This document shows positions 12,169-52,865 of a stretch of DNA of 64,000 bases, in pieces. This DNA comes from a virus, in the IMG/VR virus record IMGVR_UViG_3300026484_000351, positions 32,769 through 96,768 of that record; one strand, 5' to 3'. Position 1 is the first letter of the stretch. Each line of letters starts with the position of its first letter. A model generated the notes under the pieces. The model saw only the letters and a program-made list of their open reading frames with translations. It was not told where the DNA came from and did not search any database. A program made the translations under genes and the position numbers.

Positions 12169-12254
12169 GAATTAGCACCAAATAATAACTTTCTATTTAT
12201 AGAGAAATATATAAAAATGAAATTTTAGCAAGTTTTGATACAACAGGAATATAA

Positions 12255-12875: not shown

Positions 12876-12884
12876 GGAGAAATA

Positions 12885-14228: not shown

Positions 14229-14238
14229 GAAAAACATT

Positions 14239-14502: not shown

Positions 14503-14511
14503 GGAAAAAAT

Positions 14512-14793: not shown

Positions 14794-14801
14794 GAGAGAA
14801 A

Positions 14802-15017: not shown

Positions 15018-15460
15018 TGGGTAAAATCTTATACGCAATTAAACCAATAGGTGTCACAAAGGGGTTTGGGCGAGTATATAACAAACAGTTATATATTGGT
15101 AAGTATGAAGTTATTAATGGTACTGACATTAAATTAGTAGAAGTGCAGGACTTTAATAAAAATATAATTAAAAGACATTCATTTCCAGCGTCACTAAAAT
15201 ATGGCTCATACAATGGAATACAAACAGAAGATGTTGGTAGTGAAAATATCTATTCTGGAATGCCCAACACCAATTCGGTAATATTATTTGTAACATTAGT
15301 CGAAGCCAAATTACAAAAATTAATAGATATAAAATATATTAAGATATATTTTGAAAAGGAACTAAGAAAACTTCAAGAAAGAGCAGAAAATAATCTACCT
15401 AAAAATATTGAAGAAATTTTTGAGGAATATAGTGGTAAATACCCGGAATATTTAATATGA
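15017..15460 (+). CDS. SH3-like protein with YPE tail (KYPEYLI)
   Basis: The 147-residue product begins with a barrel-like region (MGKILYAIKPIGVTKGFGRV through IKLVEVQDF) and continues with a long helix (FEKELRKLQERAENNLPKNI) before EEYSGKYPEYLI. It is joined to its neighbours by TAATG and ATGA overlaps. No family is recognised. Confidence 0.75.
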   Translation: MGKILYAIKPIGVTKGFGRVYNKQLYIGKYEVINGTDIKLVEVQDFNKNIIKRHSFPASLKYGSYNGIQTEDVGSENIYSGMPNTNSVILFVTLVEAKLQKLIDIKYIKIYFEKELRKLQERAENNLPKNIEEIFEEYSGKYPEYLI

Positions 15461-16020
15461 TTAATTCAGGTGAGCATTTTGAAAATTATATTAGTCACAA
15501 AGATATTAAAATTTATTTTGATAACAATAAAGATAAAACCCAAATGAAATTATTTACCTCTTATTATGGATATATAACTGTTAATGGCAGAAAAACATCC
15601 CTTCAAGAAGATTATAAAGTTGAACCAGTTGAAATTGTATTATCTGTAGAAAATAAAGAACTTTGTGACCCGTTCAGAAATATGGATAATCTTATGAATG
15701 GATTAGATGAAAAACATAATACAGGTTTAAGCTCAGATAGTTTTAAAAACCCCGAGTTGACAGAATGGCAACCTTTACCCAAAGATACATTAACCTATTT
15801 TGATTGGCATGTAACTTTAACAACTCAAAATTCAGATATAGAAATTGATAAAGGAATTATAGAAAGACTTAAATTTTTTCATACAATGGAACAGGCAGAA
15901 ATGAATTATATTAAAATGATGGAATATAAATTTAAAGAATTAGGAATATTTGAAGCATTTGATAAATATAATGAATTATATAATTCATTAAGTAATAAAT
16001 ATCCTGAAGAATTTATATAA
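15457..16020 (+). CDS. Unknown 187-residue protein with YPE tail (KYPEEFI)
   Basis: The start overlaps the previous stop (ATGA). The protein has an alpha/beta first half and a helical second half (HTMEQAEMNYIKMMEYKFKE), ending NKYPEEFI, the only copy with an acidic residue in the variable position. The function is unknown. Confidence 0.75.
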   Translation: MINSGEHFENYISHKDIKIYFDNNKDKTQMKLFTSYYGYITVNGRKTSLQEDYKVEPVEIVLSVENKELCDPFRNMDNLMNGLDEKHNTGLSSDSFKNPELTEWQPLPKDTLTYFDWHVTLTTQNSDIEIDKGIIERLKFFHTMEQAEMNYIKMMEYKFKELGIFEAFDKYNELYNSLSNKYPEEFI

Positions 16021-16060
16021 AAATGAACAATTACTTAAAAAACTTTATTTAAGGAACTAT

Positions 16061-16258
16061 ATGAATACAGAAATAATTATTGAACCTTTAAATTTTCAAA
16101 GCAATTATTTTATTTGTGAAGTAAGATATAAAGTTGGTAAAAGTATAGTCGTTGCCGAAGGAATTGTAATGCTTACATTAAAAGACTTAACTAAAACAGT
16201 TCCTTTGCATTGTACTTTAAAGAACTTTGAGGAAGAGCATCCAGAGTTTTTCTTATAA
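16061..16258 (+). CDS. Small beta-rich protein with YPE-type tail (HPEFFL)
   Basis: The 65-residue product is strand-rich (YFICEVRYKVGKSIVVAEGIV) and ends EEEHPEFFL. It follows an AAGGAAC site. The gene is followed by the remains of another gene of the same type (16257-16425). Confidence 0.7.
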   Translation: MNTEIIIEPLNFQSNYFICEVRYKVGKSIVVAEGIVMLTLKDLTKTVPLHCTLKNFEEEHPEFFL

Positions 16259-16425
16259 CTGGATACAATTATCAGAGAATAAGTGGCATTTTTGAAGATA
16301 GAGAAATATATTATAATGTAGAAATTCTTAGGGAAGAGAATGGATGCAATATTTGAAAATCAATTTGAATCCTAAAACTCTATAATTAAATTAATGAAAA
16401 GGGCTGTCCGGAATGTTCTATCTAA
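16257..16425 (+). pseudogene. Remnant of another YPE-tail gene
   Basis: A frame without start codon reads GYNYQRISGIFEDREIYY...ENGCNI and stops. In another frame the bases 16393-16425 read NEKGCPECSI-stop, a decayed form of the tail. Together they look like one small SH3-like tail-bearing gene broken by a frameshift and point mutations. Confidence 0.5.
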
Positions 16426-16428
16426 AGT

Positions 16429-16457
16429 TATTTTAAGGTTATTGTGTTATAATTATA
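16429..16457 (+). promoter_or_regulatory. Promoter of the repeated phage family
   Basis: TTATTTTAAGGTTATTGTGTTATAAT followed by TATA precedes the HAD-like gene at 16474 by about 20 bases. This is one of the best matches to the family consensus. Confidence 0.82.
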
Positions 16458-16473
16458 TTTACAAAGGACAAAA

Positions 16474-17043
16474 ATGAAACAATATTTTGTAGACATAGAC
16501 GAAACTTTAATTTTTACTAAAGCTAAAATACATATTATTAAAAACAATAAAATTATTAGAAAGTTATCTAATCGAGAATATAATGCATATTCTCTACAGC
16601 AAGGCGAGAGTTATGACTTTGTAGAATTTACTTCTACAAAAATTTTCACTGAGACTTCTCAACCCAATCTAACAATGATAAAAGTCCTTGAAAAAATTAG
16701 CAAGGAAACTAAAAATATAGCTTTACTTACAGCGAGAAGAGATTTTGATGATAAAAAATCTCTTCTTAAGTACCTTAGGACTCATAAGATAAATGTAGGG
16801 CATTATAGGGATGGTCAAATTCATATAATCAGATCAGGCAATATTACTAATAAACGCACTAACACTGCACAAGCGAAGATTAAAATGATAGACAACATAG
16901 TTAAGAAAAACCCTAAAATAACTGAAATTGTTATATATGATGACTGTATTAAGAATCTTAACGCCGTTAAACAATATGCTTTAGAAAAAGGTTTGAAGTC
17001 TTCAACTTTCAAAGTAAAAGAGGGAAACATAAATTTGGTTTAA
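16474..17043 (+). CDS. HAD-superfamily phosphatase-like protein
   Basis: The 189-residue protein opens MKQYFVDIDETLIF, with DIDET the HAD nucleophile motif (DxDxT). It continues with ALLTARRDFDDK (motif II region) and EIVIYDDCIKNL (motif IV acidic pair). The family includes nucleotide, sugar and polynucleotide 3'-phosphatases. In T4-like phages HAD domains occur in Pnkp-type repair enzymes, but no kinase domain is attached here. The gene has its own promoter. The substrate is unknown. Confidence 0.8.
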   Translation: MKQYFVDIDETLIFTKAKIHIIKNNKIIRKLSNREYNAYSLQQGESYDFVEFTSTKIFTETSQPNLTMIKVLEKISKETKNIALLTARRDFDDKKSLLKYLRTHKINVGHYRDGQIHIIRSGNITNKRTNTAQAKIKMIDNIVKKNPKITEIVIYDDCIKNLNAVKQYALEKGLKSSTFKVKEGNINLV

Positions 17044-17077
17044 AGTTAATATGTTGCATTTATACAAAAGGGAAAAA

Positions 17078-17185
17078 ATGGAAAAGACAACACCGGTATC
17101 TTTAAATCAAGAGACAAACAAAGTGTTTAATGAAACAATAGAAAATAATTTAGATACAAGAAGCAATTCTTCTAAAACTTTATAA
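17078..17185 (+). CDS. Possible 35-residue peptide gene
   Basis: ATG 17078 follows AAAAGGGAAAAA. The product is MEKTTPVSLNQETNKVFNE..., polar and Asn/Thr-rich. It ends SSKTL. Strength of evidence rests on the ribosome site and its fit between flanking genes. It may be non-essential or a decayed leader. Confidence 0.45.
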   Translation: MEKTTPVSLNQETNKVFNETIENNLDTRSNSSKTL

Positions 17186-17210
17186 TAGAAAAAATGAAAA
17201 GGAAGTATTA

Positions 17211-17537
17211 ATGGAAACATTTACATCATCAACGGTATTTACTTTATCACTAAGTAATCCTTTAATGGTATTAGGTATGGTAGCAGTATTATGGTCAAAA
17301 TCATTTAGGAATTTTGTAGAAAATTGGGGATTCTTATTTATGATTTTGTGTTGGTATTTTTATGGAATTATAGGATGGTTATTGCTTTGGATATTTTATG
17401 AATTAGTAGTTTTTATGCATAACAATACTAAAGCAAAAACTAAAAAAGTTAAGAAAAAGACAAAAGATACTAATGACCAGTTTTTTGATGATTTGAAAAA
17501 CAAGAAAAGAAAACAAGAAGCAAAAAAATATATTTAA
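17211..17537 (+). CDS. Small membrane protein ending AKKYI
   Basis: The 108-residue product has two hydrophobic segments (about 5-25 and 34-62, rich in Trp and Phe), then a strongly basic cytoplasmic-type tail (KAKTKKVKKKTKD...) ending EAKKYI. This basic plus Tyr-Ile ending recurs in the window. The role is unknown. A membrane anchor for a nucleic acid or protein partner is possible. Confidence 0.75.
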   Translation: METFTSSTVFTLSLSNPLMVLGMVAVLWSKSFRNFVENWGFLFMILCWYFYGIIGWLLLWIFYELVVFMHNNTKAKTKKVKKKTKDTNDQFFDDLKNKKRKQEAKKYI

Positions 17538-17546
17538 GGAAATAGA

Positions 17547-17822
17547 ATGAGTAAAATAATTAAAGGTTTAAGAATAAACCAAGTACCTTCGAAAAATTAT
17601 ATTAATAAAGATGAATATACAAAAGAGTTTAATAATGATATAATTCCTGAATATGAATTTTTATATTTGGAAAATGGGAAATTATATAGTGAATGCTTTG
17701 CATTAGAATATGGAGAATGTAGTTCGGGATATTGTGGCGCAGAATGGATTAAAAAAGGAAATAAAAAACAAGTATCAAGTTTAGGAACATTGCATTATAT
17801 ACTAAAGGAAAATTGGAAATAG
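17547..17822 (+). CDS. Unknown 91-residue protein
   Basis: The protein has a Cys-containing acidic/aromatic middle (LYSECFALEYGECSSGYCGAEW), suggestive of metal binding or disulfides, and ends LKENWK. It overlaps the TTG start of the next gene. No family is recognised. Confidence 0.7.
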   Translation: MSKIIKGLRINQVPSKNYINKDEYTKEFNNDIIPEYEFLYLENGKLYSECFALEYGECSSGYCGAEWIKKGNKKQVSSLGTLHYILKENWK

Positions 17823-18193
17823 ATCATTTTATTACAAGTAATTATGATGGTAATGATTATTTCATTATTTATGAAAATGACTGTCGATGGTATCCAAATG
17901 CCAATATTCAGATAAAATTTGATAATTGGATAGATACAAAACGAGGCAAAGACAAAAAACAAATTTATATATTTAAGGGACCGAGTGCAATAGGAAAGTC
18001 TTATATAGCAAATTCAACTAATTTGGAGGTTTTTGAAACAGATGGACGACCGTTAAATGAATTAAATATTTCTTTTGATATTATAGTTGTAGGAAACAAA
18101 CACGGATATACAACAAGAAATATTATATCTGAGTTTAAGGAGGATAATTTAAAAAATATAGAGTTTATATTAGTTGGATTCAAGAAAATCTAG
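17813..18193 (+). CDS. Small P-loop protein (kinase-like)
   Basis: I use TTG 17813 as start because AAAGGAAAA precedes it directly. The 126 residues contain a Walker A motif FKGPSAIGKSYIAN (about 62-75) followed by a short remainder with hydrophobic strands (DIIVVGNKH, EFILVGFKK). It is shorter than a full nucleotide or polynucleotide kinase, so it may be a minimal or truncated P-loop protein. The substrate is unknown. Confidence 0.65.
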   Translation: MEIDHFITSNYDGNDYFIIYENDCRWYPNANIQIKFDNWIDTKRGKDKKQIYIFKGPSAIGKSYIANSTNLEVFETDGRPLNELNISFDIIVVGNKHGYTTRNIISEFKEDNLKNIEFILVGFKKI

Positions 18194-28528: not shown

Positions 28529-29014
28529 ATGACAGAGTCAAGCAGAATAGTAGATTGGAATGAAAAAAGAGGGTTAATCAAAACACCAGAAGATATGGTA
28601 ATTGAAAACGAAATGAGTTACGTTGTTGAGGAAGTTATAGAGTCTATGACAGCAATGACATCTAAAGAAGCAAGACCATTTGCAAGAGCAATCTGTTTAG
28701 CAATTAGAAATGGTAATATAAAAATATTAGGGCACTTAATTGATGAAAATGAACTAACAGTTTCTCAAGATGGGAGTGATGAAGTTATTGAACCTACAGG
28801 AGAACAAATTGCTGATGCTTGTGGAGATATTAAAGTATTCGCAACTGGTACAATTAGAAAAGCGGGCTATAACCCAGACATTGTAATGGATGAAGTACAA
28901 AGAGAAATAGATTCAAGAATAGGCAGAATCGAAGATGGTAAATTTATAAAAGACTCTTCACCTGAAGCACAAGCAAATTGGTATAAAGCTGATTTTACAA
29001 AAGCAAAAATATAA
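28529..29014 (+). CDS. MazG-like NTP pyrophosphohydrolase
   Basis: The 161-residue product has the layout of phage MazG-like all-alpha NTPases: an N-terminal acidic helix ENEMSYVVEEVIESM, then ADACGDIKVFATGTIRKAGYN and DEVQREIDSRIGR. The ending is the typical GKFIKDSSPEAQANWYKADF. MazG-family enzymes hydrolyse (d)NTPs to monophosphates and can lower alarmones. The metal site would use the Glu/Glu/Asp set in the first two helices. A role in nucleotide-pool control during infection is expected from the family. Confidence 0.75.
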   Translation: MTESSRIVDWNEKRGLIKTPEDMVIENEMSYVVEEVIESMTAMTSKEARPFARAICLAIRNGNIKILGHLIDENELTVSQDGSDEVIEPTGEQIADACGDIKVFATGTIRKAGYNPDIVMDEVQREIDSRIGRIEDGKFIKDSSPEAQANWYKADFTKAKI

Positions 29015-31402: not shown

Positions 31403-31978
31403 ATGAAAAAAATTAATACAGTAGAAACTCTTTGGGAATCACCAGGAAAAAATCACGAAGGGAAGCCTTTCTTTTCAGTAAAACAGTCAAGAGATTATTA
31501 CACCTATGGGGAAAGAGTGGGAAAAGATTCAATAGCATTTATTCTATATGATGACAAAATCAAGAAATTTGCCTTAATCCTAGAAAGTAAACCACCACTT
31601 GACACTGAAACAGAACTTTGTAAAATGACAACTGCATTTGGTGGAAGTATTGATATGGGTGAAAATACAACTTATCAAGAAATATGCCAAACAGAGGTAA
31701 AAGAGGAGGCAGGATATATAGTACCACTTGATAAAATTTATGATTGTGGAAAAACTCTTGTAAGTACTCAAATGTCACAAATGTGCTATACATATCTTGT
31801 AGATGTTACTGGAATTCAGAAAACAGAAATAGCTGAATATGAAACTAAAGATGAAAATAATGAATTTAACGGAAATGAAGTAAGATGGATGAATATAAAT
31901 GAAATGATGGATAATGGAGATTGGAAATCTATATATATTTGGACACAAGCTGTATATAAAGAAATAATTAAAAAATAG
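31403..31978 (+). CDS. Nudix hydrolase-like protein
   Basis: The Nudix region is at about residues 77-105: GGSIDMGENTTYQEICQTEV then KEEAGYIVP. Compared with the consensus GX5EX7REUXEEXGU, the second part is spaced by two extra residues and the Arg is replaced by Thr, while the catalytic Glu pair (KEEAG) is kept. The 191-residue size fits a single-domain enzyme. Likely substrates are nucleoside-diphosphate compounds such as ADP-ribose or NAD, of interest given the NAD module downstream, but this is unproven. Confidence 0.8.
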   Translation: MKKINTVETLWESPGKNHEGKPFFSVKQSRDYYTYGERVGKDSIAFILYDDKIKKFALILESKPPLDTETELCKMTTAFGGSIDMGENTTYQEICQTEVKEEAGYIVPLDKIYDCGKTLVSTQMSQMCYTYLVDVTGIQKTEIAEYETKDENNEFNGNEVRWMNINEMMDNGDWKSIYIWTQAVYKEIIKK

Positions 31979-33305: not shown

Positions 33306-33968
33306 ATGGAAAAGTTTAAAGAATATTTAGAAAATAATGAATATGGTAAAATAGATGAATCTGGAGCAGGTATAGCAAGAGTATTATCTAAATTAGAATC
33401 GGGAGATGACTTTTTAATAATTACAGCTTTTAGAGGTAATTTAACAAAAAAAGAGAATCAGTCAAATAATAATAAATTGATTAAAGATTTAAGAACGCAA
33501 GTAGGCAAAAAAATTGGTGCTTATAAATTAGTTGGCCATTGGAAAGAGTGTTCAGAACCACTAAAAGATGACGAAAAAATAAACGATTGTAAAGGTTTAA
33601 TAAAAGATTCATTAGAGGAAAGTTGGCTAATAATAAGACCTTCTACTATTAGCCAAGAAATCTTTATAAAAGTTGCGAATAATATAGCCAGAAAATTTGA
33701 ACAGGACGCTTATGTTATTAGAATTAATAATAAATTAACCCTTAATGGTAAAGATGGAACAGAATGGGGAGATTTGGGTAAAGCAGATAAAAAATCTATT
33801 TCTAATGGTTTTGGCAGAATATTAGGTATTCAAGGATATTCTGAATTAAAGAAAAATAGAAGTAAGGGCAAAAATATTAATATAATATTTGAAGATATTA
33901 ATATAAAAGTTCCTGATAATACAATCTCTTCAAAAAGACTATTTGATTATGCTAAAATACTATATTAA
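33306..33968 (+). CDS. DUF3293-like phage protein
   Basis: The 220-residue product contains DDFLIITAFRGNLTKKENQS (about 34-53) followed by NKLIKDLRTQVG and GAYKLVGHWKE. This is the layout of DUF3293-type phage proteins, and SWLIIRPSTISQEIFIKVAN comes later. The biochemical function of the family is unknown to me. It follows 32676 with an AAAGGAATTAAT site. Confidence 0.7.
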   Translation: MEKFKEYLENNEYGKIDESGAGIARVLSKLESGDDFLIITAFRGNLTKKENQSNNNKLIKDLRTQVGKKIGAYKLVGHWKECSEPLKDDEKINDCKGLIKDSLEESWLIIRPSTISQEIFIKVANNIARKFEQDAYVIRINNKLTLNGKDGTEWGDLGKADKKSISNGFGRILGIQGYSELKKNRSKGKNINIIFEDINIKVPDNTISSKRLFDYAKILY

Positions 33969-34087: not shown

Positions 34088-34182
34088 TAAGAAATGAAAG
34101 AATGACAGTGTCTAAACAGGGTTTTAGGCTTATATTTTATGACAGGGTTCATAGCAAAAAATATAAAAAGAAGGATTCAAAA

Positions 34183-35670
34183 ATGAATACAAACAACAGA
34201 AAAACAAACAACACAGTAACAGGTTCTCCAAGAATTACGGATTTCACACCATATATGAATAGAGAAAACAGAGTTATGTACGCAGACTCTTACAAATACT
34301 CACACGCATTTCAATATCCAACAATGAGTTCGATGTTTGACTATATGTCAAGTAGAGGCGGAGTATATCCAGCAACGATATTCGTAGGTGGACAAATAAT
34401 TTCTAAAAAATTTACAGCACCAATAGAACAATGGGAAGTAGATGAAGCATTTGCTGATGCACAAGCTCATGGAGTTTCCTTTGATGTTGAAGGTTGGGAT
34501 TATATAGTTCAAACACTTAAAGGTAAAATTCCAGTAAGAATTAAATCAGTTGAAGAAGGAAAACTTATTCCAGTAAATATGGTACTTATGACTTTTGAAA
34601 GTACAGATCCAAAAGTAGCATGGATTGCAGGTTGGATGGAAACAGTATATATGAAAGTATGGTACCCAACGACAGTAGCAACAAAATCTTACTTTGTAAG
34701 AGAAATGCTTGAGGAATTTGGTTCACCAGAATGGGCTCAATTTGCTTTTCACAATTTTGGGGATAGAAGTTCAAGTTCAGTAGAATCAGCAGCAATAGGT
34801 GGGTTTGCACATAGTTCAATTTTTATGGGAACAGATAACTTTAACAGTCTTAGATTTTGTAGAAATATGTACGGAATGAAAAATATAGCAAGTTACTCAG
34901 TATTTGCAACAGAACACAGCACTACAACTGCAAATGCGGATGGCTCAACAAAGAAAGAAATCGTATTTATTGAAAGAATGCTTATTGAAAATCCAGATGC
35001 TCCAATAATGAGTTTTGTTGCGGATAGTTACGATGTGTTTAATTTTACAGATAAAGTAACAGCACCTAGTTCTTGGATTAGAGAAACAATAGAGTCAAGA
35101 CCAAACCAAAAATTTATAATTAGACCAGATTCAGGAAAAGCAAAAAAAGTTATTAAACAAATGATTGAGATTATGGACTCTAATGGAGTATTCGATATTG
35201 AGATTATGGGCCAAGATGGTATAATGAGAAAAGCATCAAGTAATTATGGTATTCTTTGGGGAGATGGTATTACACCAAAAACAATTAAAAAAATCCTTAA
35301 AATGGTAATCAAAATGGGATATGCAGCAGAGAATATGGTTTTTGGTTCTGGTGGTGATATTATGCAAAATCTAAATCGTGATTCTCAAAGATTCGCCATC
35401 AAATGTTCAAGTATTACAAGACCAGATGGAACAGAACAAGATGTATTTAAAAACCCAATTACAGACCCATCAAAAGCGTCTAAGAAAGGTAGGATTACAA
35501 CAGTATATGATGTAATTTCTAAACAATACAGAGTTGATAGAATTGAAAACTCAGATGGAAATGGTGTATTCGGTGGAAATGAAATAGATGCACTTGTAAC
35601 AGTATTTGAAAATGGTGCTATGGTAAGAGAATTTACTATGGATGAAATTAGAAAAAATACGAGAGGTTAA
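34183..35670 (+). CDS. nadV: Nicotinamide phosphoribosyltransferase (NAMPT/NadV)
   Basis: The enzyme joins nicotinamide and PRPP to make NMN. I choose ATG 34183, preceded by AAGAAGGATTCAAA, over an in-frame ATG at 34102. The 495 residues contain the NAMPT landmarks: NRVMYADSYKYSHAFQYP at the start, FHNFGDRSSSSVESAAIGG, VFATEHSTTTAN, SFVADSYDVFN, FIIRPDSGKAKK, ILWGDGITPK and FGSGGDIMQNLNRDS. Length equals that of cellular NAMPT. With the NMNAT gene at 36381 it makes the two-step NAD salvage known in phages as NARP2. Confidence 0.96.
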   Translation: MNTNNRKTNNTVTGSPRITDFTPYMNRENRVMYADSYKYSHAFQYPTMSSMFDYMSSRGGVYPATIFVGGQIISKKFTAPIEQWEVDEAFADAQAHGVSFDVEGWDYIVQTLKGKIPVRIKSVEEGKLIPVNMVLMTFESTDPKVAWIAGWMETVYMKVWYPTTVATKSYFVREMLEEFGSPEWAQFAFHNFGDRSSSSVESAAIGGFAHSSIFMGTDNFNSLRFCRNMYGMKNIASYSVFATEHSTTTANADGSTKKEIVFIERMLIENPDAPIMSFVADSYDVFNFTDKVTAPSSWIRETIESRPNQKFIIRPDSGKAKKVIKQMIEIMDSNGVFDIEIMGQDGIMRKASSNYGILWGDGITPKTIKKILKMVIKMGYAAENMVFGSGGDIMQNLNRDSQRFAIKCSSITRPDGTEQDVFKNPITDPSKASKKGRITTVYDVISKQYRVDRIENSDGNGVFGGNEIDALVTVFENGAMVREFTMDEIRKNTRG

Positions 35671-35672
35671 TT

Positions 35673-36080
35673 ATGGGATTTTTTGGTAACTTTAATAGTT
35701 TTAGTAATACGATATCACATAGTAATACTTCTGGTACAGTTTTTAGTACCGGGAGTGCAATACAAATCAATGGACAAGATTTTAGCGGTGGAAATGTATC
35801 AATTATAAACGGAAAAGTAATAATTGATGGAGAAGAAGTTCAATATGAAAATAATTCTTCACAAATTAATATAGTTGTACAGGGAAATTGTGGAGATATT
35901 ACTTCAGACAATGGGAATATAACAGTTAATCAAAATACTAATAATGTTGAAAGCAAAAATGGTACGATTAATATTAAAGGTTCTGTTGGTGGAAGCGTTG
36001 AAAATAAAAACGGTAATATCAAAGTTTATGGAAATGTACAAGGAAATTGTACAACTAAGAATGGTAATATTTCAAAATAA
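35673..36080 (+). CDS. Repetitive Asn/Gly-rich beta-solenoid-like protein
   Basis: The 135-residue product has short repeats built on x-N-G-[N/T]-I-x-V/I: SDNGNITVNQ, SKNGTINIKG, NKNGNIKVYG and TKNGNISK. This suggests a small beta-solenoid or adhesin-like fold. The first 50 residues are Ser/Thr/Gly-rich. The gene lies three bases after the NAMPT gene. The function is unknown and a link with NAD metabolism is not evident. Confidence 0.72.
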   Translation: MGFFGNFNSFSNTISHSNTSGTVFSTGSAIQINGQDFSGGNVSIINGKVIIDGEEVQYENNSSQINIVVQGNCGDITSDNGNITVNQNTNNVESKNGTINIKGSVGGSVENKNGNIKVYGNVQGNCTTKNGNISK

Positions 36081-36094
36081 AATTAAGGAGACAA

Positions 36095-36361
36095 ATGTTT
36101 ATAGTTATTAAAAATACAGAATTGGGTGATATGCCCTTAATGATACCTGATGATGTTACCTTTTGGGTTAATTCTAATTTAACAAATAAAACATTAAAAG
36201 TTTATATTTACTTTACAAATATAACTACTAAAGAATTAAAATATGAGTTTGAAACACTTGATTTTCTAAAGGAAGCAGCAAATGATGTTTCAAGACAAGT
36301 CCTGGAAATTCAAAAAAGAATAAATAATAAGACTTTTTTTGAAGGTAGGAAAGCAATTTAA
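36095..36361 (+). CDS. Unknown 88-residue protein
   Basis: The product is strand-rich at first (LMIPDDVTFWVNSNLTNKTLK) and helical later (FLKEAANDVSRQVLEIQKRI). It follows TAAGGAGAC. It sits between NAMPT and NMNAT in the same transcript. No family is recognised. Confidence 0.72.
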   Translation: MFIVIKNTELGDMPLMIPDDVTFWVNSNLTNKTLKVYIYFTNITTKELKYEFETLDFLKEAANDVSRQVLEIQKRINNKTFFEGRKAI

Positions 36362-36380
36362 GTAATCTAAGGAGATTATT

Positions 36381-37205
36381 ATGGGATACAATATAAGGCA
36401 AAGAGTAAATGCACTTTCAAAAGAATTTAAATATTCTGCAGAACAAGAAAAAGAACTCGAATATTTTGTAAATATTCACTGTGAACTTTATGGTAAAAGT
36501 GTTGCAAATAAATATGAAGATATTTTTTCTGATTTTAAACAGAACAGAAAACTAAAATACACAAATGAACAAGATTATTCAGCAATGGATTATATTGATT
36601 ATTACTTTAGAAAATACTTTGAAAATAAAAAGGAATATGGTGTATTTGTGGGACGATGCATGCCATTTACAAATGGGCATAATGCAATTATTCAAGATAT
36701 TATCAGAGATGGGAAGATTCCCATTATGATACTTGGTGGTAAGGGCAAAAATGATGAAAGGCACCCACTTTCATATGAAGATCGTGTAAGAATAATTAAA
36801 AAAGTTTATGCGATGGATGGAATAGTCTTTATTGGACTTGAAGATAAAAATAATTGGACTGATTGGTATAATTCTGTAAAACAGGGTTTTATTGATAAAG
36901 GAATCCAAAAAGAACAGATAACGCTTTATAGTCACAATAAAGAAGTAGATAGAACAGATTTTGAATACAGAGGAAAACACTATAAATCAGAACATTATAC
37001 AATAATGTTCAAAGAAAATGGGGTAAAAATAAAAGAACTTTCAGAAGTTCTTTGTTCTGAAGGTAGGGTAATTCATGCTAGTGATGTCAGAAAAGAAGAA
37101 GAAGTGGCAAAAAGAAACTTAGATGCTAGAATATATAGAATTCTAAAGGAAAAATATGAATGGTGGTCAGGTGCCAATAACAGAAACAATAGTGAAAGGA
37201 TATAA
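36381..37205 (+). CDS. Nicotinamide-mononucleotide adenylyltransferase (NMNAT)
   Basis: The enzyme would convert NMN and ATP to NAD. The nucleotidyltransferase motif is at about residues 88-106 as YGVFVGRCMPFTNGHNAII (GR-x-x-P-x-x-x-GH type). MILGGKGKNDERHPLSYEDR and VFIGLEDKNNWTDWYNSVKQ follow, and VIHASDVRKEEE lies at the C-terminus in place of the usual ISSTxxR. The first 85 residues are a helical extension. It is co-directional with NAMPT and NAD kinase, supporting a dedicated NAD salvage unit. Confidence 0.9.
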   Translation: MGYNIRQRVNALSKEFKYSAEQEKELEYFVNIHCELYGKSVANKYEDIFSDFKQNRKLKYTNEQDYSAMDYIDYYFRKYFENKKEYGVFVGRCMPFTNGHNAIIQDIIRDGKIPIMILGGKGKNDERHPLSYEDRVRIIKKVYAMDGIVFIGLEDKNNWTDWYNSVKQGFIDKGIQKEQITLYSHNKEVDRTDFEYRGKHYKSEHYTIMFKENGVKIKELSEVLCSEGRVIHASDVRKEEEVAKRNLDARIYRILKEKYEWWSGANNRNNSERI

Positions 37206-37460
37206 ATGGTAATGGGTAAACAAATAAGAACAATAGGGTTAGTATTAAGTGATTATTGGTTATTGGTATTAATCGGATTTTATTTAATTATATTTTTAAG
37301 TTTTCCTACTATCAATTACAAATATTCCGTAGCAGCACCCGGTTTCTCAATGAGAGGTGTTGATACCTTTGTAGAAGATAACGAAAGTAAAACACTTGAT
37401 TTTAATAAAAATGGAAAGCATTATAAATTTGTAGGAACTTACGAAATTAGAACCAATTAA
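37206..37460 (+). CDS. Single-pass membrane protein
   Basis: The 84-residue product has one hydrophobic helix (about 12-33, VLSDYWLLVLIGFYLIIFL) and a polar C-terminal part with strand KHYKFVGTYEIRTN. It ends the first half of the NAD region, and a promoter follows at once. The function is unknown. Confidence 0.72.
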   Translation: MVMGKQIRTIGLVLSDYWLLVLIGFYLIIFLSFPTINYKYSVAAPGFSMRGVDTFVEDNESKTLDFNKNGKHYKFVGTYEIRTN

Positions 37461-37465
37461 TTTCG

Positions 37466-37492
37466 TCTTAAGGTTATTATGTTATAATTATA
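37466..37492 (+). promoter_or_regulatory. Promoter of the repeated phage family
   Basis: CGTCTTAAGGTTATTATGTTATAAT followed by TATA drives the unit 37518 to NAD kinase. Confidence 0.82.
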
Positions 37493-37517
37493 TTATATAA
37501 AAAGACGGATAATAAAA

Positions 37518-37889
37518 ATGATAATTAAAATAACAAATGAAAAAGAGCGAATAAACGCACAAGAGATGGTGGATTTATTAGGAATAACATTATTTGATGA
37601 ATTACAAATAGCAGAGTTTATACTAGATAAAGAAAATACTTTAAGATTAGTTAAACAAGATAACAACACTATGACGCCTTCAGAAGTAATAGAAGAAGTA
37701 AAAAGAATGGCAGACTTAATTACTGAAAATGACAAAGCAGAAAGAAAAGCAATTAAAAATAAAAATTGGGATTTGGCTTTACCATTAGAAGAGAGTAAAT
37801 TAGCACTTAAATACAAAGATGATTTTTCATTTAAATACAATGTTTTTTATGCAGAAGTATTAGATAGAATGTACAAAAGGGAAATATAA
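37518..37889 (+). CDS. Unknown helical 123-residue protein
   Basis: The product has a helix-rich sequence (INAQEMVDLLGITLFDELQI, TPSEVIEEVKRMADLITE). After its TAA stop the same frame continues for 20 coding-like residues (EVPDFDRNIAQQYKQYKMKV) to the next stop. Either the gene was recently shortened by a nonsense change or limited readthrough occurs. The function is unknown. Confidence 0.72.
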   Translation: MIIKITNEKERINAQEMVDLLGITLFDELQIAEFILDKENTLRLVKQDNNTMTPSEVIEEVKRMADLITENDKAERKAIKNKNWDLALPLEESKLALKYKDDFSFKYNVFYAEVLDRMYKREI

Positions 37890-37961
37890 GAAGTTCCAGA
37901 TTTTGACAGAAATATAGCCCAACAATATAAACAATATAAAATGAAAGTCTAAAAGGAAATT

Positions 37962-38465
37962 ATGATGGATAATATAATTATTAATAATCTATTAATAAAT
38001 AAAGAACAAATAACAAAAATAGAATATAAGATGGAATATAATAAAATTTCAGGTATTTTATATACTATTAGTCCTTTCTTATGTTATTATAAAGATGATG
38101 AAGGTTATAACCATAAAAGATATATTCGCTCAAATAGTGTATGGCATGAAGAATATATAGAAGGCGAAGAAGTTAATAAAATGTATAATGAAATTCAGAA
38201 GTTCCAAGCACAAACAAATTTTATCGAGTCATCCGGAAGTGTTTACGCTTGGATTGAACTTTCTTCGGGTGCAGAAATAAAGACAAATATTTTTAAATTT
38301 AAAAACGAAAGATGGTTTGATAGATTTAGAACACATGAAAGCGTTTTTCCTATAACAGAAAAACGTGAAGGTATAGAATTTAAATCTGAAGATATTAATA
38401 TTGAATATATAAGTGATTTAATATTTAAGAACAAAAAGCATAAAGTAACAAAAAGGGAAATATAA
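37962..38465 (+). CDS. Unknown 167-residue protein
   Basis: A tandem ATGATG follows AAAAGGAAATT. The product is alpha/beta (ISPFLCYYKDDEGYNHKRYI, VYAWIELSSGAEIKTNIFKF). Its last codons (AAAAGGGAAATATAATG) form the ribosome site of the NAD kinase gene, so the two are translationally coupled. No family is recognised. Confidence 0.74.
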   Translation: MMDNIIINNLLINKEQITKIEYKMEYNKISGILYTISPFLCYYKDDEGYNHKRYIRSNSVWHEEYIEGEEVNKMYNEIQKFQAQTNFIESSGSVYAWIELSSGAEIKTNIFKFKNERWFDRFRTHESVFPITEKREGIEFKSEDINIEYISDLIFKNKKHKVTKREI

Positions 38466-39307
38466 TGGGAAAAATAAAAAAATGTCCAAAATGTGGAAAT
38501 ACAACAGATTTAGGAATGGATAGAAGCCCTTGGGGAAAGAGTTACTGTAATGTTTGTGGTTTTTCTGGACCTCATGCTTTATTATATACTAAGGAAATAA
38601 AAGATAACCTTTATATTAAAGACGAATATGATAAAAATAAATATATTAATGCCAATGAATCAATTATCATTGCTCAAGGCGGAGATGGTACAATGCTTAA
38701 AGCAATTAATAAGTTCCGGCATTTAAATAAACCATTTTATGGGATTGGAGTGGGCACAGAAAACTTTCTTATGAACCCTGCAAGTGATACTGATATTTGC
38801 GAAACAGCAAAATATAAAAAATTTAATCTAATTAAAATTAAGGTATATTATAAATCCTCCCATAGATTTCATGACGGAACTCATTCTGAAATAATTAAGG
38901 AGTTTCAAGCATTTAATGAAGTTATGATGGGCGGAGACATGAACACTTGGGCAGAATACAATGTTCATGATAAAGATAAGATTATAGGTAAGTTTAAAGG
39001 TGGAGGGGTTTCAATTTGTACAGCTCAGGGTAGTACAGGATTTAATATGGGGAACGGTGGTTCAGTTCTTCCATTAAGTTCAGACCAATGGTTTGTAACT
39101 TCAGCATTTTCAAAAAGAAATATTAAAGTTCCAATTGAACCAAAAAGAACCTCAATAACAGTGGAAAGTAGGAGCCCAATAACAGTATGGGTAGATGGAC
39201 AAAATCATATTATTGAAAATGTACAAAAGATAGAAATTTCTAAAGGTGATATTGTTACTGTTATCTTTAATGATTATGAAGCATTTAAGAGAAAAAGGAG
39301 AGTATAA
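38465..39307 (+). CDS. NAD kinase with N-terminal zinc ribbon
   Basis: The kinase phosphorylates NAD to NADP. Its signature IIAQGGDGTMLKAIN is at about residues 67-81, followed by FYGIGVGTENFLMNP and the C-terminal motif CTAQGSTGFNMGNGG. Residues 4-36 are an extra zinc ribbon (CPKCGN...CNVCGF), which I do not know from cellular NAD kinases. At 280 residues the kinase part is complete. Encoded 1.3 kb after the NMNAT gene, it would extend the salvage path from NAD to NADP. Confidence 0.9.
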   Translation: MGKIKKCPKCGNTTDLGMDRSPWGKSYCNVCGFSGPHALLYTKEIKDNLYIKDEYDKNKYINANESIIIAQGGDGTMLKAINKFRHLNKPFYGIGVGTENFLMNPASDTDICETAKYKKFNLIKIKVYYKSSHRFHDGTHSEIIKEFQAFNEVMMGGDMNTWAEYNVHDKDKIIGKFKGGGVSICTAQGSTGFNMGNGGSVLPLSSDQWFVTSAFSKRNIKVPIEPKRTSITVESRSPITVWVDGQNHIIENVQKIEISKGDIVTVIFNDYEAFKRKRRV

Positions 39308-39484
39308 ATGAAAAAATTGCCATATATAGTTGATAATGAAACAGAAATAAATATAGTGTTGGAAAAGGGAATAGAATCAATTCAAATGAACGCCATTATG
39401 AAGGATAAACAATATAAAAAACATTTTATTTTTCCTGAGAAAAATTCAGAAGATTTTGAAATAGTTATAAGGAAAATAAAATGA
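39308..39484 (+). CDS. 58-residue unknown protein
   Basis: ATG 39308 lies directly after the NAD kinase stop (TATAAATG). The product MKKLPYIVDNETEINIVLEK... is alpha/beta, and ends with an ATGA overlap to the next gene. Its fit between the two genes supports translation. No family is recognised. Confidence 0.62.
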   Translation: MKKLPYIVDNETEINIVLEKGIESIQMNAIMKDKQYKKHFIFPEKNSEDFEIVIRKIK

Positions 39485-39945
39485 TTAGAGTAATTTACGC
39501 ACAAGAGGAACTAGATGCTCTTGATAATTGTAATTTAATTTTATTCCTTGCTGGACCAACACCAAGAGATGAAAACACTAAAAGCTGGAGACAAGAATTT
39601 TTAAAAGTTCTTGAGGATTCCGATTTTCATGGAACAGTCCTTATTCCGGAAATGAGAAACCCTAAAGATTGGAAAGAAAATTTTGCTTATGATAAACAAA
39701 TTGAATGGGAACATAATGCAATGGGAATAGCAACTGATATAATCTTTTGGATACCTAGAGAGTTAAAAAAGATGCCCGCATTCACTACTAACATAGAGTT
39801 TGGGTATTGGTTAGCGAAAGACTATAATAAAATGATAGTTGGTTTTCCTGAAGGAACTCCTAAGAATGATTATATTAAATACCAATGCATAAAAAATAGA
39901 ATTCCATTATTTAAAGATATGAAATCTCTTGCAGAGTATTTATGA
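39481..39945 (+). CDS. Nucleoside 2-deoxyribosyltransferase-like protein
   Basis: The 154-residue product shows LILFLAGPTPRDENTKSWRQ, IEWEHNAMGIATDIIFWIPR and FTTNIEFGYWLAKDYNK, the layout of nucleoside 2-deoxyribosyltransferase-like proteins (PF15891 type). The Glu of TNIEFG is in the position of the catalytic residue. Such enzymes cleave or exchange N-glycosidic bonds of nucleosides, and the fold is related to TIR and SLOG proteins that handle NAD. Its place beside NAD kinase suggests a role in nucleotide or NAD chemistry. Confidence 0.8.
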   Translation: MIRVIYAQEELDALDNCNLILFLAGPTPRDENTKSWRQEFLKVLEDSDFHGTVLIPEMRNPKDWKENFAYDKQIEWEHNAMGIATDIIFWIPRELKKMPAFTTNIEFGYWLAKDYNKMIVGFPEGTPKNDYIKYQCIKNRIPLFKDMKSLAEYL

Positions 39946-41375: not shown

Positions 41376-42443
41376 ATGGGACTAATTTATAAACATACTT
41401 TCAATAACTCAAATAAATCATATATAGGTTTAACAAAATACACAATGGAAGAAAGATTGAAGGGCCACCTAAAAGCTGTCAAAAATGGTTCAGCTTTGCA
41501 TTTTCATAATGCAATTAGAAAATATGGAGTAGAAAATATTATTTCAGAAATACTAGAAGATAATATTGAAATAAAAAATTTGACAGACAAGGAAATCTTT
41601 TATATAGATAAATTTGATACTTTTTTAAATGGTTATAATATGACTTTAGGAGGGGAAGGTAATTTTGGTTTGGAACATTCAAACGAAGCCAAACAAAAAA
41701 TTTCCGAAGCAAATAAAGGATATAAAGTGGTGGTGAATAAAATAACTAGAAAAACTTTGAAAATAAAAGTGGAAGATTTTGATAATGAGTTATATGATAC
41801 TTTTATGAAAGGTAAAATTAATGTTTATAATAAAAAAGCAGGTGAACATATAATAGTTTCATTAAACTATTTCAATAATAATAGAAAGGATTTTATCACT
41901 AATTATGAAAATAAGGTAGTTGTTAGAGATGGTTTAGAAATTAAAGTTGTTTCTACCGAAGATTTTAAATCTGGTGATTTTGAAAGTATTCATAAGAATA
42001 AATCAACTTTTAAGGATAAAAACGGCAAAACTTATAATATAGATAAGGATAGCAAATTAATTTCCGAATTAGGATTGGTTGGAATTAATGATGGAATAGG
42101 TAATTATATTGATGAATGTGGTAATAAAATTAGACTTTCTACAAAAGAGGCCAAATTAAGAAATCTGAAAGGTATTAATACTGGTACATTTCATAAAGAA
42201 TGTGCTAAAAATATACTAATTTATGATGAAAAGGGAATTATTAGATACAAATGTTTTGGGAATTTCGCGACAGTTTGTAAAGAGAATGGTTTACCTCCAA
42301 CAGCTTTTGGTGATTCTTATAGAGCAAAAGGAGAGAAATTATATGAAAATTTGACACACAACTCGAGTATATCTAGATTAAAAAATAAAAATTACTGGCG
42401 ATTTAAAGGATGGTCAGCAAAATTAAGCGAAGATGTTAAATAA
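41376..42443 (+). CDS. GIY-YIG homing endonuclease with NUMOD3
   Basis: The protein has 355 residues. The GIY-YIG domain is at residues 1-95 as MGLIYKHTFNNSNKSYIGLT, with EERLKGHLK, AIRKYG and the catalytic Glu in LGGEGNFG. A NUMOD3 motif HSNEAKQKISEANKG follows. The long C-terminal part probably binds DNA, with repeats around STKEAKLRNLKG. Such free-standing phage endonucleases spread themselves by cutting unoccupied alleles. The gene replaces the middle of the sirtuin gene. Confidence 0.9.
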   Translation: MGLIYKHTFNNSNKSYIGLTKYTMEERLKGHLKAVKNGSALHFHNAIRKYGVENIISEILEDNIEIKNLTDKEIFYIDKFDTFLNGYNMTLGGEGNFGLEHSNEAKQKISEANKGYKVVVNKITRKTLKIKVEDFDNELYDTFMKGKINVYNKKAGEHIIVSLNYFNNNRKDFITNYENKVVVRDGLEIKVVSTEDFKSGDFESIHKNKSTFKDKNGKTYNIDKDSKLISELGLVGINDGIGNYIDECGNKIRLSTKEAKLRNLKGINTGTFHKECAKNILIYDEKGIIRYKCFGNFATVCKENGLPPTAFGDSYRAKGEKLYENLTHNSSISRLKNKNYWRFKGWSAKLSEDVK

Positions 42444-42558
42444 TATGAATGAATCAGTTGATTTGCCTGAAAAGTTATTTGATAAAATATATTATGAAAG
42501 TTGTGAAACAGCAATGCAAAAAATTGAAAAAGATATTGATGAATTATGGAATAAATAG
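42433..42558 (+). pseudogene. C-terminal fragment of the sirtuin gene
   Basis: The frame MLNNMNESVDLPEKLFDKIYYES...DELWNK overlaps the end of the GIY-YIG gene. A sequence of N-x-x-x-LFD-x-x-x-Y-x-x-x-x-E-x-x-x-x followed by an acidic helix is typical for the last strand and helix of bacterial sirtuins. It could still be translated as a 37-41-residue peptide, but most likely it is the leftover 3' end of the gene at 40916. Confidence 0.5.
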
Positions 42559-42575
42559 TGTTACTTTTTGTAACA
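42559..42575 (+). promoter_or_regulatory. Perfect palindrome upstream of the chaperone genes
   Basis: TGTTACTTTTTGTAACA is a six-base inverted repeat with a five-base spacer, directly after the previous stop codon and 142 bases ahead of the Hsp20 gene. It may be a small terminator or an operator. The remaining leader is AT-rich with a weak TATAAT but no family promoter and no CIRCE element. Confidence 0.45.
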
Positions 42576-42717: not shown

Positions 42718-43155
42718 ATGTTTTTAACTAAATTAGACAGACCAAATTTGTATCCGATGGGAACAAGTTTAGAAAAGGTTTTCGATGAGTTTTTTGAAAA
42801 CTCATTTAAAGAAATGGGAAATAATAAATATCCGATGACAGATATTTATACCGAAAATGGTGTTACTCACATTAGGGTAGCAGTAACAGGTTTTTTCGAT
42901 AAGGAAATAGAAATATTTTTAGAAAACAATCTACTAACAATTAAAGCTTCTCATGAAGACAAATCCGGAAGAGATTCAAGAATTTACCATATTAAAAATA
43001 TAGCAACAAGAAGCTTTATTAGGAAATTTGCAGTATCAAATATAGTAGAAGATATCAAAGCAGAAATAAAAAATGGTGTATTACATCTTGAGTTAATAGA
43101 AAAAGAAAAAGAAATAACTAAAAAAGTTATTCAAATAGATACAATTAAAAAATAA
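42718..43155 (+). CDS. Small heat-shock protein (Hsp20 family)
   Basis: The 145-residue protein has the alpha-crystallin domain from about residue 38: YPMTDIYTENGVTHIRVAVT, LENNLLTIKASHED, SFIRKFAVSNIVEDIKAEIK and the hallmark NGVLHLELIEKE. Small heat-shock proteins hold unfolding proteins for refolding by DnaK. It leads a run with dnaK, grpE and a dnaJ-like gene, all with AAGGAG-type sites, which indicates one operon. Confidence 0.92.
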   Translation: MFLTKLDRPNLYPMGTSLEKVFDEFFENSFKEMGNNKYPMTDIYTENGVTHIRVAVTGFFDKEIEIFLENNLLTIKASHEDKSGRDSRIYHIKNIATRSFIRKFAVSNIVEDIKAEIKNGVLHLELIEKEKEITKKVIQIDTIKK

Positions 43156-43185
43156 AACTAACTTAAAATATAAGGAGATTTAAAA

Positions 43186-45045
43186 ATGGCAACAATAGGA
43201 ATAGATTTAGGAACTACAAATAGTGCGGTAGCAGTATATGAAGCAGGGGAAGCAAAAATCATCCCAAATGCAGAGGGCAAAAATACAACACCATCAATAG
43301 TAGCGTTTACAAATAAAGGTGATGTTTTAGTTGGTGAACCAGCAAAAAGACAGGCCGTAACAAACCCAACAGGAACAATTGAAGCGGTAAAAAGAATTAT
43401 GGGTATGCAATTTAATGAACCAAAATGCAAAGAAGCTCAAGAAAAAGTACAGTATAAGATTGTAAATAAAAATGGACTGGCTGCAGTTGAAATTGATGGC
43501 AAATCATACACCCCACAAGAAATTTCGGCTAAGATTTTATCGAAATTAAAAGACGATGCAGAAAGTTATTTAGGTACAACTGTAACAGATGCAGTTATTA
43601 CAGTACCAGCATACTTTAATGATGCTCAAAGAAAAGCGACACAAGAAGCAGGGACAATTGCAGGACTTAATGTATTAAGAATTATAAATGAACCAACATC
43701 TGCTTCACTAGCTTATGGACTTGATAAAAAAGGTGAAGAAAAAGTAGCCATTGTAGATTTAGGCGGCGGCACATATGATGTTTCTGTAATGGAAATAGGT
43801 GATGGGACTTTTGAAGTTTTATCGACAGATGGAAATGCTTTTTTTGGTGGAAAAGATTATGATCAAGATATTGTTAATTATTTAGCTGGAGATTTTAAGT
43901 CTAATAATGGGGTAGATTTAAGAAATGATAGTATGGCAATGCAAAGATTATTTGATGCAGCTGAAAATGCTAAGAAAGAGTTAAGTTCAACAATGGAAAC
44001 AGAGATAAACTTACCATTTATTACAGCAGATGCAACAGGACCAAAACATTTAGTCGTATCTTTAACAAAAGCAAAATTTGAAGAGTTAATTAGTGAAAGA
44101 ACAAAAGAGGTTACAACTCACTTAGAAACTGCTTTAACTGATGCAGGTTTAACACCAAATGATATTAACGAAGTTATTATGGTTGGGGGTTCAACAAGGA
44201 TTCCGTTAGTGCAAGAGAAAGTCCAAAAATTCTTTGGTGGTAAAACATTAAATAATTCAGTTAATCCCGATGAAGTTGTTGCTGCTGGTGCAGCAATACA
44301 AGCAGGGGTATTAAGTGGAGATGTTAAAGATGTTCTTTTACTTGATGTTACACCATTAAGTCTTGGTATTGAAACAATGGGTGGTATTATGACTACTCTT
44401 ATTGAAAAAGGTACAACAATTCCAGTTAAAAAATCTCAAGTATTTAGTACAGCAGAAGATAATCAACCAGCAGTATCTGTAAGAATAGCACAGGGTGAAG
44501 CAAAATTATTTGAAGATAATAAAATGTTAGGTAATTTTGAATTAGGTGATATTGCTCCAGCTCCAAGAGGAACTCCTCAAATAGAAATCACACTTGATGT
44601 AGATGCTAATGGTGTATTAAATGTTTCAGCAAAAGATAAAGCGACAGGAAAAGAAAATAGTGTAACTATTACTGGTAGTACGGGTTTATCTGATAATGAA
44701 ATTGCTAAAATGGTGGCTGATGCCGAAAAAGCAAATGCTGATAAAAAAGATAAAGTTGAAGCAATTGAAGCAAGAAATGCGTTAGATAGTTTAATTTCAC
44801 AAGCAAGAAAAACTAATGATGAAGTTAAAGATGAAAGTCTTACGACGGCAATTAGTACAGCAGAAGAAAAATCAAAAAATGAGGTTTTAACTAAAAGTGA
44901 CTTAGAAACAGCTAAATCTGATTTAGAAAAAGTGCTTATGGAAGTAATGCAAAAACAAGCACAACACGGAACATCAAATGAAGCATCTGAACAAGCCGAA
45001 AAGGTTAATGATAGTAGCACCATTATTGATGCGGAGGTAGAGTAG
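43186..45045 (+). CDS. dnaK: Hsp70 chaperone DnaK
   Basis: The 619-residue protein is full length. It has the ATPase signatures [38 protein letters not shown] and [18 protein letters not shown], the substrate-binding domain start [17 protein letters not shown], and a lid ending TIIDAEVE as in bacterial DnaK. The nucleotide-binding loop [16 protein letters not shown] resembles Campylobacterota DnaK, which suggests acquisition from the host. A complete phage-encoded DnaK is rare. With GrpE and the J-protein downstream it could form an independent folding system for phage proteins. Confidence 0.96.
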
Positions 45046-45074
45046 GTTTATCCTACTCTACAAAAGAGTTAGAA

Positions 45075-45587
45075 ATGGCTACAAAAATTCACGAAGATTT
45101 AACTGAAAACGAAAAATTGGACACGGCTGAAGTAGAAGAAAGAGAGCAATCAGATGTTCCCTATGAAAATACAAAACTTAAAGATAAAATTAAAGCATTA
45201 GAAAGCGAAAATCTCAGAACTCATGCTGATTTCCAGAATGTAAAGAAAAGACTAGAAAAAGAAAAATTAAATTCTATAAAATTTGCACAAGAACAATTTT
45301 CTCTAGACTTATTAGAAGTATTGGATTCTTTATATATCGCAGTACAAGTTATACAAGATGCAAAAGAAAAGGAAGGTATAACAAACACAATTAAAAAACT
45401 AACAGATATTTTTAGTAAATATCATATTTCTGAAGTTACATATGAAGTATTTAACCCTAACTTACATCAAGCAGTACAGACAATTAAATCAGAAAAAGCT
45501 TCAGGAGAAATTGTTCAAGTTCTAAGGAAAGGTTATACAATCCATGATAAAATACTAAGACCAGCAATGGTGAGTATATCTCAATAA
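45075..45587 (+). CDS. grpE: Nucleotide-exchange factor GrpE
   Basis: The 170-residue protein has the long N-terminal helix ([21 protein letters not shown] then [16 protein letters not shown]) and the C-terminal beta domain with [20 protein letters not shown] and [17 protein letters not shown], the GrpE hallmark (R-x-A-x-V). GrpE releases ADP from DnaK. It follows dnaK by 29 bases. The ribosome site is weak (AAAAGAGTTAGAA). Confidence 0.93.
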
Positions 45588-45597
45588 AAGGAAGAAT

Positions 45598-46353
45598 ATG
45601 AAAGATTTATATAAGACATTAGAGATAAGTGAAAATGCAACCGAACAGGAAATTAAAAAAGCTTATAGAAAATTAGCAAAGAATTATCATCCTGATGTCA
45701 ATAAAACCAAAGAAGCCGAAGAAAAATTTAAAGAGATAAATGCAGCTTATGAAGTCTTAAGCGATAAAAATAAAAAAGCACAGTATGATAGATATGGTGA
45801 TCAAATGTTTAACCAAAACAATTATGCCGGCCATCAACAACATTCTGAAGATATTTTTGAACAGATGTTTAGAGCTAGCTTTGGGTTTAATAATCAAATT
45901 AATCTCGATAGAACCGTAAGGGTAAGAGTACCATTAGATAAAGCTATAAAAGGCGGCAAGATAACTATTGAAGGCAATACTATATCATTTCCTAAAAATA
46001 TTAGTAATGGCACAAAACTAAGAGTAAAAGGAAAAGGCAAAACTTTTCAAGGGCAAACTGGAGATTTATATGTACAGTTAGTTGTTGTCGGGGATAATAA
46101 CTTTGAAGTAAATTATAACACTATACATACAAGCGTTGAATTAAATCTAAAAGAAGCTATTTTTGGAACACATAAAGAAATAAATTTATATGGAGATATA
46201 ATAAAAATAAAAATTCCTAAAGATATTAAATATGGACAACAACTACGAATTAGAGGAAAAGGTCTACATAATGATAATATGATAGTTCATTGTATTTATG
46301 TTTTACCAAAGTCAGACGAAATAAAAGAAAGTGATTTAAACTTTGTAAAATAA
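45598..46353 (+). CDS. DnaJ/CbpA-type J-domain co-chaperone
   Basis: The J domain covers residues 1-70 with [20 protein letters not shown] (HPD motif) and ends [10 protein letters not shown] short linker leads to DnaJ C-terminal substrate-binding domains ([39 protein letters not shown]). The CxxCxGxG zinc repeats of true DnaJ are absent, so it is of the CbpA class. The 251 residues are slightly shorter than CbpA. It would activate the neighbouring DnaK. Confidence 0.93.
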
Positions 46354-52586: not shown

Positions 52587-52865
52587 ATGAATATTAAAAT
52601 ATTTAGAGAAGACTTTAGTGCATTTAATTTATTAGAACAAAATGAATTACTTTTATATTGTAAATTTTTTCTTAAATTGAAAATAAAATCTGCTGTTGCT
52701 AAAAAAGATTTTAATTCTATTTATTTTGACATAATGAGGGAACTATCTGAATTTGAAAATAAACTAATTCATAAGTTCAGAAAAGAAAAACTTCAATATA
52801 TAAAAATACAGAATAATATAAATTATAATTACATTAGAGATAAATACCCTGAAGTTTTTATTTAA
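52587..52865 (+). CDS. Helical protein with YPE tail (KYPEVFI)
   Basis: The 92-residue product is basic and helical (LLEQNELLLYCKFFLKLKIK, MRELSEFENKLIHKFRKE) and ends YIRDKYPEVFI. It lies 36 kb from the main YPE cluster and shares only the tail with its members, which shows that the tail is portable. The ribosome site is AAAGGAATATAA. Confidence 0.74.
   Translation: MNIKIFREDFSAFNLLEQNELLLYCKFFLKLKIKSAVAKKDFNSIYFDIMRELSEFENKLIHKFRKEKLQYIKIQNNINYNYIRDKYPEVFI

Follow-up and report, generated by a model that had tools for sequence, protein, structure and literature searches.

The rebuilding of NAD by phages is a recent chapter of the arms race between phages and bacteria. In the pathway called NARP2, a nicotinamide phosphoribosyltransferase (NAMPT) and an NMN adenylyltransferase (NMNAT) reconstitute NAD (Osterman et al. 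2024, as cited in PMC11984713 and PMC12028318), and its role in counter-defence is, according to the same papers, established elsewhere. Within the operon of NARP1, a glycosidase breaks down cADPR signals and supplies NAD synthesis (PMC13232231). NadV, NadM and NadR are listed in a 2022 survey of viral NAD systems, which has zero mentions of NAD kinase (PMC9503650), and our literature searches on phages and NAD kinase, covering part of the literature, returned no description of such an extension. Within the literature searched, published accounts stop at NAD, and the kinase step described here is unreported.

We analyzed a window of 64,000 nucleotides (the whole stretch of DNA considered here), bases 32769-96768 of a 96,768-base IMG/VR virus record. 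A preliminary description, made from the sequence alone, had claimed NAMPT, NMNAT, NAD kinase (NADK) and deoxyribosyltransferase-like genes in this window. All four are present, supported by profile, PDB-sequence and fold matches, and the gene names agree across Pfam, PHROG, NCBIfam, PDB-sequence and fold searches (Table 1). They share the + strand with a broken sirtuin gene and with the Nudix, MazG-like and SLOG-like genes of the same description. The topoisomerase large subunit of the window is 57-58% identical to those of Vibrio phages of ~191-196 kb, a likeness that points to a large phage with T4-like genes as the source. A megablast search of the locus against cultured phages gave zero matches, and PADLOC reported no defence match for the NAD module itself.

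Several other features of these sequences deserve mention in their own right. By sequence reading, the window encodes consecutive small heat-shock protein, DnaK, GrpE and DnaJ genes, a complete Hsp70 chaperone set (42718-46353), and an IS607-like element (8597-10408) with a serine recombinase and a TnpB apparently split in two open reading frames. The predicted proteins of the window include 14 (of 100) that end in a YPEYFI-like motif (P-E-x-aromatic/hydrophobic-I/L), most of them encoded at 1566-16258 (1.5-16.3 kb) and another at 52587-52865; similar endings occur in the viral contigs L016 and L020, and the motif is possibly a shared C-terminal signal. In contig L017, the topoisomerase large subunit (15502-17933) has an apparent intein-like insertion.

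Table 1. Features of the NAD module and its surroundings, in window coordinates
Feature	Position	Strand	Evidence or remark
MazG-like gene	28529-29014		
Nudix hydrolase	31403-31978	+	Pfam and profile searches
NAMPT (nicotinamide phosphoribosyltransferase)	34102-35670	+	Pfam, PHROG and PDB-sequence matches; GSGGDIMQNLNRD replaces the Namat motif
NMNAT (NMN adenylyltransferase)	36381-37205	+	NadM/archaeal-like core, N-terminal helical extension, no fused Nudix
Phage-type NAD kinase (NADK)	38465-39307	+	N-terminal CxxC..CxxC zinc-ribbon-like segment, residues 7-31
Nucleoside deoxyribosyltransferase-like gene (PF15891)	39481-39945	+	Pfam 3.4e-13; conserved Glu in TTNIEFG
Conserved gene between NADK and sirtuin, also in L017	40329-40877	+	Profile search and gene-order comparison
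Sirtuin remnant, N-terminal 92 residues	40916-41197 (residues to 41191)	+	Pfam, PHROG, L017 comparison
GIY-YIG homing-endonuclease-like gene, replacing the sirtuin middle	41376-42443	+	Sequence reading of the ORF
Probable C-terminal sirtuin remnant	42433-42561	+	Frame differs from the N-terminal part
SLOG-like gene	59660-60034		20 kb from the module

The NAMPT reading frame has an in-frame ATG at 34183 and homology from ~34255; the true start is likely 34183 or further downstream. The protein matches PF04095 (1.6e-30) and NAMPT_N (1.4e-15) in Pfam, phrog_448 in PHROG (5.7e-107) and the X. campestris NAMPT 7yqo (2.8e-97). In an alignment with the last of these, the histidine of catalysis (ATEHST), the aspartate of GTD and the RPDSG motif are all retained. 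Compared at the sequence level with the Namat motif GSX-Phi-X-Phi-X-Phi-TRD, the window's enzyme has GSGGDIMQNLNRD, without the aromatic clamp residues, and would belong to the PRPP-using type. A homologue of Adps (PRPP-synthetase-like, PF13793) was found in 0 of 3 records searched (the window's own, G001 and Sinorhizobium phage Phosso) and in all 14 control genomes. With neither an Adps homologue in the record nor the Namat clamp motif, membership of NARP1 was rejected, and the absence of both signatures indicates a NARP2-like route. The window appears to hold a PRPP-type NAMPT and an NMNAT in one locus, the NARP2 gene set that had been proposed for it.

The NMNAT carries the motifs PFTNGH and HASDVRK. 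Its single-sequence match lies below Pfam's cut-off; a four-sequence profile matches the NadM structure 2qjo (1.8e-11), and for the AlphaFold model (mean pLDDT 71.6) the best Foldseek matches are NadM and archaeal NMNAT (8.9e-8).

For the NADK, matches were found to NAD kinase in NCBIfam (6.5e-24), to the C-terminal domain in Pfam (4.3e-7) and, by hmmsearch, to solved NAD kinases (1e-11). The top 50 fold matches of its AlphaFold model (mean pLDDT 75.7) are all NAD kinases, L. monocytogenes NADK1 among them (Foldseek 2.3e-12), at modest TM-scores of ~0.53-0.60. The best NCBIfam model reaches 84.5 bits against an equivalog cut-off of 211, and the protein appears to be a NAD kinase at the level of family rather than equivalog. 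An ARAGORN tRNA-Leu within the gene (38992-39081) had no Rfam support and was rejected.

Together with its viral relatives, this kinase differs consistently from the other NADKs compared. The 15 phage-type kinases form a single clade in a quick tree (SH-aLRT 100), set apart from all NADKs sampled by a branch of 2.3 changes per site. Their GGDGT and N-D/E motifs are invariant, the choice of D or E aside. The GDG aspartate, present in 87 of 87 other NADKs compared, is G, A, S or C in 15/15; TPT is T(P/A)Q, again in 15/15, so that TPTGSTAY is replaced by T(P/A)QGSTG(I/F), and the tyrosine of STAY has become Ile or another residue. In solved NADKs these positions presumably line the dinucleotide pocket; with the pocket remodelled, substrate or regulation could differ, and given the lost GDG aspartate NAD is a predicted substrate. 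Human mitochondrial NADK2, a true NAD kinase, aligns SSG at the GDG position, so the aspartate is not strictly defining for the activity. The N-terminus of the phage-type kinases is short, with a CxxC...CxxC segment there in the window and L016. In a collection of species-representative genomes, the closest NADKs show just 21-31% identity.

With the kinase as the sole query, and no reference to NAMPT, three scans of viral sequences yielded 15 contigs in addition to the window (L007/G001, L016, L017, L018, L019, L020, L026, L027, L029, L031, L032, L034, G014 (L133/L199), G002 and L208). Since the final scan added L208 alone, these patterns are near saturation. Scanning viral contigs with single NADK and NMNAT proteins returned zero matches, and alignment queries were needed. 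By NAMPT and NMNAT profiles, 12 of the 16 contigs, window counted, have both genes within 10 kb of the kinase; in one of the 12, L020, NAMPT is interrupted. NMNAT is near the kinase without an intact NAMPT in two more: L208, which has a 31-residue NAMPT remnant, and L031, a 7.7-kb fragment where an NMNAT-Nudix gene adjoins the kinase. NADK lies ~98 kb from NAMPT in G002, and L016, a 17-kb fragment, has the kinase with neither partner. A Fisher combination of per-contig distances over the 11 contigs then known gave p = 0.0013 for closer than random placement, a value that is conservative because the contigs are short and that ignores shared ancestry.

Individual arrangements can be tighter still. 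NADK starts 4 bp past the NAMPT stop in L020, and Nudix, NAMPT, NMNAT and NADK are consecutive in L018. One 393-codon reading frame in L019 encodes an NMNAT domain followed by a kinase domain, with NCBIfam matches on both halves; the boundary has no methionine or start codon, which argues against a simple sequencing error, and the fusion is seen in this one contig. The preliminary description had singled out the kinase step as the unusual extension, and proposed a search of phage genomes for kinase genes within 10 kb of NAMPT and NMNAT. Its recurrence across viral contigs bears it out as real, and the cassette appears to be a recurrent NARP2 extension with a predicted flow from nicotinamide through NMN and NAD to NADP.

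The kinase is nevertheless a minority extension of a common pair: of the 80 viral NAMPT loci nearest to that of the window, NMNAT lies within 10 kb in 74 and NADK in 8, and a whole-record search of 44 other NAMPT records found NADK in 3. A quick NAMPT tree requires 7 gains or losses of the kinase label, or at least 5 if judged by the starred branches. Of the NADKs found in 50,697 cultured-phage records, just one plausibly belongs to the phage itself, that of Phosso, which has an NMN transporter and NMNAT less than 7 kb away. This kinase groups with alphaproteobacterial NADKs outside the phage-type clade (quick tree) and was probably a separate acquisition. The Phosso "NAMPT" match was set aside as a 440-aa nicotinate-type enzyme, judged by length and motifs. 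Searched by tblastn against cultured phages, the window kinase hit bacterial-looking contigs only (L002 and L003 carry chromosomal housekeeping genes); the Phosso query recovered many canonical NADKs, which indicates adequate search sensitivity for that kind. A large-phage island, G042 (L200, 5000-23000), holds a canonical NADK, NADAR, SLOG-like, PF15891 and NAMPT genes within 13 kb. NADKs outside the phage-type clade, in Phosso and G042, are linked to NAD genes as well.

The module was also said to have formerly held a sirtuin, and this proved correct. Remnants flank a GIY-YIG gene in the window: the N-terminal one shares 62% identity with an intact L017 homologue of 257 aa, and the C-terminal trace, near 42433-42546, is weak, matching residues 217-254 of the L017 sirtuin at 12 of 38 positions (E 0.002, with 2.5 kb searched). 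In L017 the intact gene lies directly 3' of NADK and a gene like that at 40329, matching the local order of the window. A spliced sirtuin was rejected, since no intron was matched and a search of the record did not recover the protein's middle part. On this reading of its sequence, the sirtuin is disrupted by insertion of a putative homing-endonuclease gene. In L020, NAMPT (7755-9979) is split by an HNH-endonuclease-like reading frame (8354-8983). Homing endonucleases appear to have struck NAD genes repeatedly, in the window sirtuin and the L020 NAMPT.

Companion genes recur as well. The PF15891 protein scores 50.3 bits against a family cut-off of 30, its Glu106 is invariant in 4 homologues, and relatives occur in L019, L199 (G014) and L200 (G042). 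A separate Nudix gene is found in the NAD clusters of L018, L019, L026 and L029, and more weakly in L032 and L208; Nudix is fused to NMNAT in L007, L020, L031 and L034. The preliminary description had placed Nudix, MazG-like and SLOG genes nearby, which holds for the first two (within 6 kb of NAMPT) and is wrong for the SLOG-like gene. The NARP1-operon glycosidase is a precedent for such passenger genes mattering. Just 5' of NAMPT lies an S-adenosylmethionine lyase-like gene (33306-33968; PF23780 2.9e-6, just under cut-off), and L016 has a similar gene upstream of NADK.

We consider it probable, with some reserve, that this is an extended NAD(P) salvage cassette of the NARP2 type, which rebuilds both coenzyme pools in infection. 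NAMPT would join nicotinamide, left by host effectors that cleave NAD, to PRPP to give NMN; NMNAT would adenylate NMN to NAD; and the phage-type kinase would convert part of the rebuilt NAD to NADP, whereby the phage would restore its NAD and NADP pools during infection. The Nudix and deoxyribosyltransferase-like proteins would likely be helpers that clear ADP-ribose-type or nucleotide by-products. We infer that the enzymes are active, that NAD flows on to NADP and that selection comes from NAD-destroying defence rather than general metabolism; the family-level gene identities, the NAMPT and kinase motifs, the recurrence of the cluster and the one NMNAT-kinase fusion are observed.

The same genes might instead serve general metabolism, with no part in defence: replicating phage would draw on the added NAD and NADPH to make thymidylate, deoxynucleotides and other products of reductive synthesis. 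NADPH-consuming pathways are at hand, by sequence reading, in a ThyX-like gene of the window (2535-3398) and ThyA- and DHFR-like genes of L007, but the kinase travels with NAMPT and NMNAT, and ribonucleotide reductase, a large indirect consumer of NADPH, is absent from the window's own record. That enzyme was found in 6 of 11 NADK-bearing against 12 of 13 NADK-less NAMPT records, all of these being fragments; its lack of enrichment with NADK counts mildly against a reading in terms of nucleotide synthesis alone, and we regard metabolic supply as unlikely, if a serious contender. A kinase that parks rebuilt NAD as NADP, perhaps a poor substrate for some NAD-cleaving effectors and drawn on later, would account for a phage NADK in NAD rebuilding when hosts possess the enzyme themselves, and fits the clustering and the fusion. 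Such a shield would also require a phosphatase to release NAD, however, and the bacterial NAD-degrading toxin NatT destroys NADP too (PMC11535050), although the NatT study argues against a phage-defence role for it (PMC11535050); because some toxins destroy both coenzymes, pool restoration fits better, and we find the shield distinctly doubtful.

A kinase that keeps the NAD-kinase fold and catalytic centre and acts on another pathway metabolite (NMN, ADP-ribose or a cyclic ADP-ribose signal, for example) would account for a pocket changed at GDG and TPT in 15/15 proteins and at the tyrosine of STAY, for the long branch and for the zinc-ribbon-like segment added in the window and L016. Its best profile and fold matches are nonetheless all NAD kinases, and NADK2 presumably manages without the same aspartate; a change of substrate therefore strikes us as improbable, though worth keeping in view. 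We would give similarly limited credence to the idea of a distinct, infection-tuned clade, no borrowed NAD kinase, that takes NAD or another intermediate directly from the phage NMNAT, its fusion partner in one contig, and yields a phosphorylated product out of reach of NAD-cleaving effectors or of host feedback; if true, it would give phages a protected coenzyme pool. Mere neighbourhood in a gene-dense region, or contamination with host DNA, is hardly credible: nearly all genes in the module region lie on one strand, so co-direction alone means nothing, but the arrangement recurs across 16 diverged contigs and includes the fusion, phage-type topoisomerase genes lie near the cluster in the window and L017, and the low identity to NADKs of species-representative genomes speaks against a host origin.

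The recurrence of the kinase step suggests that NADP, too, is managed by some phages, and raises the question of whether lost NADP(H) accounts for part of the killing by NAD-depleting defences or whether NAD is safer when held as NADP. The NMNAT-NADK fusion found in nature is a candidate bifunctional NMN-to-NADP enzyme.

Set against cellular NAD kinases such as LmNADK1 and NADK2, the phage kinases share the fold, GGDGT and the N-D/E motif, but they are short at the N-terminus, form a separate clade, lack the GDG aspartate and carry T(P/A)QGSTG(I/F) in place of TPTGSTAY. The KVP40-type nadV/NadM genes of large phages likewise salvage nicotinamide with NAMPT and a NadM-type NMNAT, with a Nudix domain fused or separate, whereas the window's NMNAT has no Nudix fusion. 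NARP1 (Adps plus Namat) also rebuilds NAD with a NAMPT-family enzyme, and its operon can include an accessory glycosidase gene (RyDEP, PMC13232231), but the window's record has neither an Adps homologue nor the Namat clamp motif. The closest likeness is to NARP2, with clustered NAMPT and NMNAT in a phage genome and Adps absent; beyond this set the window has a NAD kinase, a PF15891 protein and a Nudix gene that stands by itself.
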